A stretch of 64,000 nt of DNA, from contig NZ_JQCL01000080.1 in NCBI RefSeq assembly GCF_001438845.1, positions 286,073-350,072 of the forward strand, written 5' to 3'. This document shows positions 36,446 to 39,877 of the stretch, one piece after another (the first letter of the stretch is position 1; the number at the start of each line of letters is the position of its first letter). A program made the translations under genes and the position numbers. Origin of the DNA: Lactiplantibacillus xiangfangensis (GTDB lineage: Bacteria; Bacillota; Bacilli; Lactobacillales; Lactobacillaceae). The notes under the pieces were generated by a model. That model searched no databases and was not told where the DNA came from. It saw nothing but the letters and a program-made list of their open reading frames with translations.

Positions 36446-36463
36446 AAAGTGCACCGTTAAAAA

Positions 36464-36510
36464 AGCTAGCCCAGTCTCTGATTGTCTAACGACTCAGAAC
36501 TGGGCTAGCT
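36464..36510. terminator. bidirectional terminator
   Basis: 12-bp perfect stem AGCTAGCCCAGT / ACTGGGCTAGCT with A run before and CTTTT after. Serves the micro-gene on the plus strand and the membrane protein gene on the minus strand. Confidence 0.88.
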
Positions 36511-36541
36511 CTTTTATTAAAATAAAACCTTATTAAATCAA

Positions 36542-37048
36542 TTACTCGAAATCTTTGGCATCACCAATAACCATATCCTTTTCACGGCACTTCTTTAACA
36601 TCAGTGGCCCCGCAATTGGTGATAGCACACCGGCAATAATCACACCACCAATAAGCGTTGCGATTATGCGACCAATAACTGACCAAAAACCGCCAAAGTA
36701 CCACATCCCATTTAGTAACCGGCCAACAAAACTCTCGCGGTACCAATACAGTGAAAATGGATAAAAGTACGCGCTAATTCCCGTTAATAAAACTTGGATG
36801 ATGAAAATAACCGATACTGAAGCCGATTGTTCAAACCCATTATTACTCATAATTCCCCCGAATAAAATGGCTGAAATAATTAGGCCGTACAATAGCCATA
36901 CAACCGGGATCACAATTACCAGGTGAAATAATTTACGTTTGCGATAATCCGGATGTAAGTACGCTGATGCTTTTAACTTGCCCCCCGCAGTACTAGTCGT
37001 ATGACGTTTTTGCTTTGGTGGTTTAACATAGTGCCGTTGTTCTGACAT
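36542..37048 (-). CDS. four-helix membrane protein, partner of the AAA+ gene
   Basis: 168 residues, unrecognised. A basic hydrophilic N-terminus (MSEQRHYVKPPKQKRH..., about 40 residues) is followed by about four membrane helices: HLVIVIPVVWLLYGLIISAI, VSVIFIIQVLLTGISAYFY, GMWYFGGFWSVIGRIIATLIGG and VIIAGVLSPIAGPLML, then a short charged tail. AAGGAG precedes the ATG by 8 bases. It starts 30 bases after the AAA+ gene on the same strand and both share one terminator, so they form an operon. Function unknown; a membrane anchor or target for the ATPase is inference. Confidence 0.8.
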   Translation of the reverse strand: MSEQRHYVKPPKQKRHTTSTAGGKLKASAYLHPDYRKRKLFHLVIVIPVVWLLYGLIISAILFGGIMSNNGFEQSASVSVIFIIQVLLTGISAYFYPFSLYWYRESFVGRLLNGMWYFGGFWSVIGRIIATLIGGVIIAGVLSPIAGPLMLKKCREKDMVIGDAKDFE

Positions 37049-37078
37049 GTTTTTTACTCCTTTTTGAACAGTTACAAT

Positions 37079-39010
37079 TTATAACTTAGCTGCATTTAAA
37101 TCCTGTGCCGTAATCAACGATAAATCGGCTTGCTCGTTGCCCGCAATTCGAACGGCCATTTTTCTGACTAGCCGTTCGTTCAAATTTCGAATCCAACGCC
37201 CGTTGCTGTGGTCATCAGACTGCTCAAAATTATGGTGTACCAGTTCAGTATAAGCCGCTTCATCCACGCGATACTTCTTCTTTTTGAGATCCAATAACCC
37301 GATTTGGACCAGTTCATCCTGGGTGTAATCTTCAAAATTAAAGCTATTGGGAATCCGACTCTTAAGTCCTTCGTTCATTTGTAAGAATTTTTCCATACTA
37401 TCCGTATAGCCGGCAAAGATGATGACGATGTCACTTCGATGATCTTCCATAAACTTCAAGATTTCATCAATCGCTTCGGAACCAAAATCATTTTTGCCAC
37501 CACTTGCTAACGTGTACGCTTCATCGACGAATAGGACGCCTCCAAGTGCTGATTCTAGCACCTCACGCGTTTTAACCGCCGTTTGACCAACGTATTGGCC
37601 GACTAAATCAAATCTGGATACTTCGATGAATTTTTGATTGGCAATAATTTTCTTTTCGTATAACACTTTGCCAAGAATTCTAGCGACCGTCGTTTTCCCC
37701 GTCCCAGGATTACCTAGAAATAGTGAATGTAACGTCATCGCTGAATCACTTAGACCCTTGTCCTTACGCTTCTTATTCATCTCAGCAATGGCGATGAATT
37801 CATTGACTTCGTCTTTGACATTCTTAATACCAATCATGTTGTTTAATTGCTCATAAGCCGTCAAATCGCCAAAATAAGTGATTTTACCCTTCGTTGAAGC
37901 TGGCACATAGTTATTGTTTTCATCAACTAAAAAGGCCTGTTTCTCTTGGTCGTATTGGTTATGACCTACGACGCCCACTTTAAAACTAACGTTTCGTTCC
38001 AGCTTGATATTCGGGTTAGTGAGGATACCGAAGTTGATTCGGTCCGCTTTAATCGAAGAATTACTAGACATAAATAAATTAATTGTTCCATTCTTCTTAC
38101 CAACAATAAAGAAGCGCTTGGCCGATATCGTTGACTTTTTCTCAGCTATTAAGCTTTCTTGAATGAAAGTCTCATCGATGGTCACAGTTGAACTTGTGAC
38201 TTTCATTGAGTCAATAGACCCATTAATAAGTGTCACTTTTCCGTTGACAACTGAAAGTCCTTGACTAACCTTGGGCTGAACAATCAGACTGTTCTTAAAA
38301 GTTAGCTGAGAATCAAACATGTACACACGAGAAAAGTACTCTTTAGGTGTGCTTAAGCTACCACTAATTGTTGAAGATACGAGTGTAATCTGACTATTTT
38401 TTTCGCTATAAATAGCATGCGCAGTCTCGCAATTGATGGTCGAATGCTGACAAGTTACCTTCGCATTTATTGCCTTCACTCCTACATGAATAACAGAATT
38501 CACCAAGTCTAAACTTGCATCTGAAACATAAACTGGATTTCCATTATCTTGTGTTTCGACATCAATTTGAACCCGATTGAACTTTGCGTGCGACTTACCA
38601 TCAATGTAAACAATTGGATACATCTCTCCGCTCTCAACCGCAGAACGAATATAGACGTTGTCAGCGATTAAGGTACTGCCTTTTTTCACGCTAATATTGT
38701 TACTTTTATCGATATTCTTTTGGATACAAACATCCTTTAACGTGACCTGAGCACCATCAGTAACAAAGATTCCATCAAGAGTATTAGTAAAGTTCCGCCC
38801 CCCCTGATCATTCACAGTCACGTGTCCCTGAATCGTAATGTTTTTACTGATAGCAGTCGGCTTATTTTCTTGTCCATTGATGGGACAAAAGCCCTCTTCA
38901 ATTTCAATCACATCACCGTCTTCAGCCGCCTCCAGCGCGTCGTTGAAATCCCAAGTAGATTGCCGACTGAAAAGGGTTCGTTTCTTTTCCCCAACTAAGT
39001 AATAATTCAT
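37079..39010 (-). CDS. beta-helix / CbxX-type AAA+ ATPase fusion protein
   Basis: 643 residues from the ATG at 39010 (AAGGAG 11 bases upstream). Residues about 40-330 are repeats rich in Val, Ile, Ser, Asn and Thr (GAQVTLKDVCIQKNI, ASLDLVNSVIHVGVKAIN, SQITLVSSTISGS, GKVTLINGSIDS) typical of a right-handed parallel beta-helix. Residues about 385-643 are an AAA+ domain of the CbxX/CfxQ-SpoVK-EccA type: Walker A GNPGTGKTT (433-441), pore-like SRFDLVGQYVGQTA, Walker B VLFVDEA (492-498), sensor 1 IIFAGYTD, arginine finger LKSRIP, sensor 2 GRWIRNLNER. No signal peptide. Such ATPases remodel protein complexes, including Rubisco and type VII secretion systems; no ESX gene is in this window. Confidence 0.85.
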   Translation of the reverse strand: MNYYLVGEKKRTLFSRQSTWDFNDALEAAEDGDVIEIEEGFCPINGQENKPTAISKNITIQGHVTVNDQGGRNFTNTLDGIFVTDGAQVTLKDVCIQKNIDKSNNISVKKGSTLIADNVYIRSAVESGEMYPIVYIDGKSHAKFNRVQIDVETQDNGNPVYVSDASLDLVNSVIHVGVKAINAKVTCQHSTINCETAHAIYSEKNSQITLVSSTISGSLSTPKEYFSRVYMFDSQLTFKNSLIVQPKVSQGLSVVNGKVTLINGSIDSMKVTSSTVTIDETFIQESLIAEKKSTISAKRFFIVGKKNGTINLFMSSNSSIKADRINFGILTNPNIKLERNVSFKVGVVGHNQYDQEKQAFLVDENNNYVPASTKGKITYFGDLTAYEQLNNMIGIKNVKDEVNEFIAIAEMNKKRKDKGLSDSAMTLHSLFLGNPGTGKTTVARILGKVLYEKKIIANQKFIEVSRFDLVGQYVGQTAVKTREVLESALGGVLFVDEAYTLASGGKNDFGSEAIDEILKFMEDHRSDIVIIFAGYTDSMEKFLQMNEGLKSRIPNSFNFEDYTQDELVQIGLLDLKKKKYRVDEAAYTELVHHNFEQSDDHSNGRWIRNLNERLVRKMAVRIAGNEQADLSLITAQDLNAAKL

Positions 39011-39257
39011 TACCGCTACCACTCCTTTTAAGTGTCTTGACCTATGTTTTAAAGTCTAAAAAACCGCGCCATAAATCTATTGCATTTAATTCACAGCATC
39101 AGTGTGCAATTTTTGATTAGTCGCACCGATTTTAACTAAACCACTACCATTCATCATTTACATGACTAAATAATTAATGGCAGCATTAGTATCTTCATTA
39201 TACACAAAATTCCTTTTGCTAAACCGTTCCTAATAAAATATCTCATTATCAAGCATC
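39011..39257. other. leader and promoter region of the AAA+ operon
   Basis: A TATAAT lies on the minus strand at 39197-39202, with no good -35, implying a leader near 190 bases. The leader can form a hairpin around 39080-39110 (ATTGCA / TGCAAT enclosing CAC / GTG). AT-rich, no gene seen. Confidence 0.4.
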
Positions 39258-39293
39258 AAAAAAAGCGGACCCGAAATCAACTTTCAGATCCGT
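39258..39293 (-). terminator. terminator after the tyrosine recombinase
   Basis: Minus strand CGGATCTGAAA / TTTCGGGTCCG stem with GTTGA loop followed by a run of T. Confidence 0.85.
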
Positions 39294-39307: not shown

Positions 39308-39877
39308 TTACTCATTATCTGGATAAATTCCTAAGGCAAAGTTAGTAAGTTGGCGCTCGATATTGTCGCGTTCAATCCCAATGTAGCGTTTGGTCACTTG
39401 TTCGCTGGAATGATTAAAAATCATCATTAATCCCGCAATATCATGCGTCTGTTGATAATAATGATAGCCAAAGGTTTTTCGTAGTGTGTGGGTGCCAATA
39501 TCATTGCGATCTAAAAACTGACTGGCCGTTTGAAACGCACGGTAAACGCCATTGACGGTAATTGCTTCGCTCCCACGACCACTTGGAAACAGTGGCGCCA
39601 TGTCATCACGATAACGCGTATACTTAAAAAGTTCTCCCCGTAAATTTTTAAGAAACAGCCACCGCTTCTTGCCAGTCTTCTGTTCAATAATCATCGTTCG
39701 ATCCTTATTACGAACTTGACCCACTTTTAACTTTAAAATATCACTCATTCTTAGACCAGTGTTGATACCGAGTAACACAATCATTCGGTTACGTTGGCCG
39801 TGTTGTGTTCGGGCGACGGCCCACAGAAAATCATCAATTTCCTGTTTAGTGCGTAAAGGTTCTACATTATAGCGCAT
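39308..39877 (-). CDS. short tyrosine recombinase (catalytic domain only)
   Basis: 189 residues with the complete catalytic set: NTGLRMSD (Arg), KTGKKRWLFL (Lys), GTHTLRKTFGYHYY (HxxR), IFNHSSEQVTKRYIG (His and nucleophile Tyr). The N-terminal arm-binding and SAM-like core-binding domains of XerC/D and phage integrases are missing, the size being close to that of FimB/FimE-type DNA invertases. GAGGG precedes the ATG by 10 bases. An 8-bp inverted repeat lies 47 bases upstream. Whether it inverts or moves DNA here is unknown. Confidence 0.88.
   Translation of the reverse strand: MRYNVEPLRTKQEIDDFLWAVARTQHGQRNRMIVLLGINTGLRMSDILKLKVGQVRNKDRTMIIEQKTGKKRWLFLKNLRGELFKYTRYRDDMAPLFPSGRGSEAITVNGVYRAFQTASQFLDRNDIGTHTLRKTFGYHYYQQTHDIAGLMMIFNHSSEQVTKRYIGIERDNIERQLTNFALGIYPDNE

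Follow-up and report, generated by a model that had tools for sequence, protein, structure and literature searches.

The two genes described at this locus by an initial annotation of the window (the whole 64,000-nucleotide stretch analysed, part of contig C23 of genome G000, which measures 2.99 Mb in total) were confirmed: a gene encoding a beta-helix/AAA+ ATPase fusion is followed, after a gap of 30 bp and on the same minus strand, by a gene with its own AGGAG that encodes a membrane protein of 168 residues, here called TM168 (Table 1). The open reading frame list also holds an alternative GTG start for the ATPase at 39022, but we set the start at the downstream ATG because this GTG overlaps the AGGAG of the gene and because the orthologues begin at a methionine matching the ATG. 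The pair looks like a single transcription unit, since the short gap contains an AGGAG, a strong hairpin directly follows TM168 and a terminator-like hairpin precedes the ATPase gene. The latter was one of four sites found by a consensus terminator scan (mean of 2.3 in shuffled sequences), while the hairpin behind TM168 is absent from that scan because it falls outside the loop and stem limits used. The co-transcription proposed earlier thus draws on spacing and flanking hairpins but finds no counterpart in a consensus promoter, as the promoter scan gave no site 5' of the ATPase gene and its two sites (7.8 expected from shuffles) both lie within that gene. Upstream of the pair, 39308-39877 on the minus strand encode a short tyrosine recombinase of 189 residues that comprises the catalytic part only (Pfam Phage_integrase, PHROG 216) and is possibly a mobility gene. 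A small tyrosine recombinase also lies upstream of the pair in genome G012, and an L. mucosae plasmid with an AAA relative carries a small site-specific integrase a few kb off.

Table 1. Features of the ATPase-TM168 locus (window coordinates).
Feature	Position	Strand	Basis
Terminator-like hairpin, interval between integrase and ATPase genes	39266..39292	-	consensus scan
AGGAG ribosome-binding site, ATPase gene	39022..39026	-	from sequence
ATPase gene, beta-helix/AAA+ fusion	37079..39010	-	643 aa + stop, ATG start 39010
All-beta repeat domain (predicted beta-helix), residues 1-372	37895..39010	-	AlphaFold model, strand count, PF13229 in relatives
Low-confidence linker, residues 373-384	37859..37894	-	pLDDT <50 at 372-382
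AAA+ domain and lid, SpoVK/CbbX/EccA clade, residues 385-643	37082..37858	-	Pfam, curated models, structure matches, tree
P-loop (Walker A) GNPGTGKT, residues 433-440	37691..37714	-	invariant in 7 orthologues
Walker B LFVDE, residues 493-497	37520..37534	-	F494, D496 and E497 invariant in 36 sequences
AGGAG ribosome-binding site, TM168 gene	37057..37061	-	from sequence
TM168 gene, 168-aa membrane protein	36542..37048	-	three clear, possibly four transmembrane helices
Basic N-terminal tail of TM168 with YVxPPK, residues 1-42	36923..37048	-	kept in 6 family copies
Intrinsic terminator, strong hairpin and T run directly 3' of TM168	36455..36520	-	-37.7 kcal/mol, z -9.36

The key motifs of the CbxX/EccA-type motor that had been annotated are indeed intact. 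Pfam recognizes AAA (64.1 bits) and AAA_lid_6 (31.2 bits) above their cut-offs, the closest solved sequences are those of CbbX (E 8e-52), and in an alignment of 36 sequences six of the eight P-loop positions are invariant and the remaining two nearly so; D496-E497, G534-Y535, R552 and R605 are invariant without exception. Two features that the preprint PMC10659427 ascribes to the clade are thus found here: the sensor-1 GY signature (G534-Y535) and the second arginine finger at sensor-2, for which R605 within SNGRW is our own assignment. N546 is likewise invariant and is followed four residues on by K550 in the window protein and by arginine in most orthologues, the invariant R552 standing six residues after N546. 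Three curated models match at 216-282 bits, the next one reaching 35 bits, and since the scores for TIGR02881 (SpoVK, 282 bits versus a cut-off of 423), TIGR03922 (EccA, 222 versus 467) and TIGR02880 (CbbX, 215.8 versus 459) all lie far below the cut-offs, the window ATPase is, judged by its sequence, a member of the SpoVK/CbbX/EccA clade that stands outside all three named families. With CbbX, the red-type Rubisco activase and its best solved match (39% identity in the structural alignment), it shares the AAA+ core, but CbbX has no beta-helix and its target is Rubisco. The core is also shared with SpoVK, the sporulation chaperone for MurG and the best curated model, which instead has a short unique N-terminal domain (residues 2-41) and from which the window ATPase groups apart in the tree. 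By analogy with CbbX and SpoVK, the window ATPase probably forms a hexameric ring that would use ATP to remodel its target.

An AlphaFold2 model of the ATPase based on 36 sequences (mean pLDDT 88.1, pTM 0.62) is all-beta over residues 1-372, with 190 strand and 7 helix residues in this part. No Pfam match was obtained in the front end of the window protein itself, PF13229-type sequence being positive in relatives only: an orthologue from genus g38 scores 25.1 bits with PF13229 (Beta_helix) against a cut-off of 25.9, and a Lactobacillus gigeriorum protein (L095), found with a profile of window-type front ends, exceeds the cut-off with 32.0 bits. A PDB sequence search with the front end returned nothing credible (two chance-level rows, E 1.3 and 1.8), and the matches named among the best 50 listed per Foldseek search were AAA proteins and therefore give no independent proof of the fold. 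The model and the relatives together nonetheless make the assignment of the front end as a beta-helix, the fold proposed in the initial annotation, well supported, and it is presumably right-handed like the family. The fusion itself is already known and not unique to this locus, as PMC10659427 mentions a beta-helix in EccA. Moreover, 38 Streptomyces records matched, and in 4/4 of the Streptomyces plasmid regions read the beta-helix/AAA gene lies near eccCa and an S8 peptidase gene. These EccA-like proteins of the type VII secretion system (T7SS) have in common with the window ATPase a beta-helix, presumably right-handed, ahead of AAA+ sequence of the same higher-order clade; they contain two AAA domains, whereas the window protein has one, is accompanied by a small membrane partner in a genome without a WXG100 match, and belongs to a separate clade of the tree.

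TM168 deserves its earlier description as an unrecognised protein: Pfam yields nothing above cut-off, and NCBIfam, PADLOC and PHROGs yield nothing even with E values allowed up to 1. The accompanying description as a four-helix membrane protein stands as far as the membrane and three clear hydrophobic segments (43-61, 77-95 and 128-146) are concerned, a fourth helix being only possible; the structure model is poor (pLDDT 55.5, from an alignment of two sequences), and three or four transmembrane helices are predicted. The tail of 42 residues ahead of the first segment contains 11 K/R versus 2 D/E. According to the positive-inside rule basic flanks face the cytosol, and because the tail is very basic the N-terminus of TM168 is probably on the inner side, which would make the tail cytosolic. 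All six TM168 copies from Lactobacillaceae have YVxPPK near the N-terminus and five start with M(S/T)E, the sixth (G071) with MPSN. In G006 the gene directly 3' of TM168 (L017 4399-5535) codes for a membrane protein in which Pfam recognizes a zinc ribbon and a TcaA second domain. In G015, too, the ORF behind TM168 (L019 from 9931) is by eye a zinc-ribbon ORF of similar kind, which appears to be split.

Profiles of the ATPase and of TM168 were used to search 350 genomes of the family, with at most three candidates per genome scored for the ATPase, whose counts are lower bounds. The ATPase profile matched at least 49 genomes at E up to 1e-30, with at least 55 ATPase ORFs in 54 regions of these 49 genomes. 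TM168 was matched in seven genomes, six strongly and one weakly (G158, 4.5e-4), and each of the six strong copies immediately follows a window-type ATPase gene, with 23-77 bp between the two and both on one strand; at one of the six loci the ATPase gene is broken. Window-type genes were found in 11 genomes, and TM168 adjoins them in six; the other five comprise four of genus g38 and G080. The overlap has P about 2e-10 if genomes are independent, a value that is too small because the genomes are related and the co-occurrence counts are non-independent. Among 398 genomes of the class TM168 was strong only in the window's own genome, a weak test because the only window-type carriers in that set were G000, G057 and G089. 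Four weak hits in class genomes were discarded as further TM168 copies; at two of these loci the product looks by eye like an ABC permease and like a subunit of the NADH-dehydrogenase type, respectively. A single scan of named genomes uncovered a Staphylococcus simulans contig with a full-length ATPase orthologue (49% identity in the best segment), which the tree places inside the TM168-bearing clade (96/85). Beside this beta-helix gene, on the opposite strand, lies a TM168 homologue (22% identity) that retains only the tyrosine of YVxPPK and is separated from the ATPase orthologue by an ORF of 118 residues, by eye a lipoprotein. The pairing first noticed in the window is thus conserved in 6/11 carriers and in S. 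simulans, against the alternative that homologues are never paired, and TM168 is very probably the partner of the ATPase gene. Neither this pairing nor the KPxFG motif described below was found in print in a literature search that covered the fusion and its kin rather than the motif. In genus g38 (G089, G057, G267 and G206) a P-type ATPase, different from that of G005 and G015 (see below), adjoins the gene.

The window's own genome also encodes, at G000:C100:2383-5505 (L015), a membrane protein with a KPxFG motif and, behind it, a beta-helix protein of 833 residues that contains two AAA domains. Of the 55 ATPase ORFs found, 24 have two or three such domains; with the window-type beta-helix profile 17 of these 24 reach an E value of 0.01 or lower and seven do not. 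Upstream of 15 of these 24 genes, on the same strand and in seven genera, we found a KPxFG membrane protein, positioned directly upstream in 14 cases (11-28 bp) and next but one in G228; the nine genes without this partner have varied neighbours. The partners are 175-239 residues long, and their tail, in which disorder-promoting residues abound, has one to four FG motifs. K-P-x-F-G is at residue 4 to 6 in all except G260, where it is at residue 19 as annotated, and M..KP.FG is invariant amid an otherwise variable tail (10 sequences). Among 694 ORFs of at least 100 residues in 59 regions, KP.FG was present within the first 60 residues of 15, which are exactly the 15 partners, and a partner profile, built from 10 of its own 15 strong matches, detected 16/350 genomes, with strong scores in those same 15 and a weak one in G030 (8.5e-5). 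G041 contains a further partner copy with RPxFG. A common origin of the KPxFG partners and TM168 was considered and is unsupported (hhalign probability 3.7).

Other neighbours in this branch vary. In G228 the KPxFG partner and the three-AAA gene flank a stand-alone beta-helix gene (L075 9815-10618, 268 aa, PF13229 27.7 bits), which we read as the recognition part encoded as a separate gene. Upstream of a tandem-AAA gene lacking the KPxFG partner, L074 9405-10142 encodes a DUF805 membrane protein whose N-terminal tail is rich in glutamine and which may represent a third type of partner. In G005 and G015 a P-type ATPase (identified by eye) is encoded behind the tandem-AAA gene, and its N-terminal RYLPP is reminiscent of the tail of TM168. 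We rejected this P-type ATPase as a client, as it occurs in 18/21 genomes of the genus but beside the AAA gene in only two, and as YLPP-like starts are common regardless of neighbour.

Comparison of the window with G012 separated the two halves of the ATPase. In the AAA domain 1/260 residues differs (dN/dS 0.0043, dS 0.38), compared with 52/383 residues in the beta-helix part (dN/dS 0.149, dS 0.51), which is most divergent at residues 121-300; TM168 differs by about 5% (dN/dS 0.059) and the adjoining integrase by about 4% (dN/dS 0.042). The beta-helix is under purifying selection overall, far weaker than that on the motor, as expected of a recognition part. That its divergence is directed to the surface was not borne out, with 25/52 of the substitutions between window and G012 lying in strands versus 190/372 strand residues (Fisher P 0.66). 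In a survey of the genus 7/21 genomes had any ATPase match and 5/21 a window-type gene, one of them broken. The pair is accessory and occurs in differing surroundings, and the ATPase gene can be lost, as its broken copies in G015 and G206 demonstrate. A search of a phage collection gave no record covering 80% of the query, and in a plasmid collection four plasmids reached this coverage, all from Ligilactobacillus salivarius.

On balance, we think that the pair probably constitutes a dedicated AAA+ chaperone that remodels its target on the cytosolic side of the membrane, tethered there by the cytosolic tail of the partner. The ATPase would assemble as a hexamer whose six beta-helices serve as arms for recognition. 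The partner's basic N-terminal tail would lie in the cytosol and dock the ring via a short motif, YVxPPK in TM168 and, in the tandem-AAA branch, KPxFG, where each tail has between one and four FG motifs; the protein finally remodelled could be the partner or else a different protein of the envelope. Supporting this reading, TM168 was found only beside a window-type gene in the genomes searched (weak hits aside), the motor is far more constrained than the beta-helix, and a comparable arrangement with an unrelated membrane protein exists in the tandem-AAA branch, although one docking mechanism for both branches is an analogy because no homology between TM168 and the KPxFG partners was detected. 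According to PMC10659427, the characterised members of the clade are narrow, dedicated chaperones, SpoVK acting as one at a specific cellular place, and variable N-terminal domains may recruit substrate. The initial interpretation of the locus, which had the membrane protein or an unlinked partner as possible client of the ATPase, is as a whole partly supported.

More broadly, and tentatively, a little short of an even chance, there may be a class of membrane-tethered, T7SS-free remodelling ATPases in lactic-acid bacteria and at least one Staphylococcus, in which a near-invariant ring would be aimed by a fast-changing beta-helix and docked by short tail motifs, with unrelated partners adopted separately in each branch. 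Targets are known for few ATPases of this clade, and many of the ATPase genes described here, from genomes in which WXG100 gave no match, bring a very probable partner gene and a short candidate motif for docking, which makes the targets of beta-helix AAA+ chaperones directly testable. If true, this would add a way of placing AAA+ rings on membranes.

CbbX acts on Rubisco by pulling on a tail, and TM168 could similarly be the client itself, the ring pulling its N-terminal tail to activate, disassemble or extract it. The adjacency of TM168 to the ATPase gene agrees with this, as do the conserved motif, which in either partner family is at the very N-terminal end, and the dedication of clade members to one target reported in PMC10659427. 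We regard it as unlikely all the same: up to four motif copies per tail suit docking better than threading, TM168 belongs to no recognisable enzyme, channel or transporter family, and the partner is absent from part of the ATPase family. Because repeated motif copies suit multivalent docking, we lean towards the membrane partner as an anchor or adaptor rather than as the sole client.

Distinctly less likely is an anti-phage or abortive-infection unit with the beta-helix as sensor, the AAA+ domain as switch and the membrane protein as killing effector. The patchy spread (the 5/21 genus genomes, including the broken copy), the integrase gene adjoining the pair in the window and in G012, and a relative located four genes from brxL on an L. 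salivarius plasmid would all suit such a unit, but neither gene of the pair has a PADLOC model of a known system: the best match of the ATPase there, at 38 bits, is the anti-phage ATPase IetA/IteA, with which it has only the AAA+ fold in common (AAA core region only; 35 bits versus an NCBIfam cut-off of 510), and PADLOC gave no match for TM168 or for those membrane proteins of the KPxFG type and of S. simulans that were searched. In addition, the rpoD/dnaG flank of the window holds, by eye, housekeeping genes.

That the two genes are mere neighbours, accessory genes travelling together with no joint function, seems quite improbable to us. The possibly mobile context, with an integrase here and transposase-like ORFs (by eye) near the G016 copy, and the ATPase copies without partner fit such an explanation, yet across the 350 family and 398 class genomes, the latter set with few carriers, TM168 was not found without the ATPase gene (weak hits aside), S. 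simulans keeps the pairing despite another order and strand, and the other branch has its own unrelated partner. WXG100 searches of 16 genomes gave matches in five at E up to 0.001, only G158 exceeding the family cut-off, and none in the window's own genome, in line with the lack of a neighbouring Rubisco or ESX substrate noted at the outset, or in the five other TM168 carriers surveyed (G012, G006, G016, G015 and G071). An EccA-type ATPase of a T7SS, acting on secreted substrates, is therefore the least probable reading, despite the Streptomyces regions and the beta-helix reported for EccA in PMC10659427, as the EccA model also scores less than half its cut-off and the tree separates the lactic clade from both the Streptomyces T7SS proteins and the single long-branch EccA.

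Beyond the TM168 and KPxFG carriers, genus g42 of the same order encodes tandem beta-helix/AAA proteins of 920-980 residues with varying neighbours (L212-L215), in genomes without a TM168 match and in regions without a KP.FG start. Genus g27 has an AAA relative of 450-485 residues with a different N-terminal region (L079, L093 and L222-L227), the G251 representative of which forms a long branch beside the lactic beta-helix clade in the tree.
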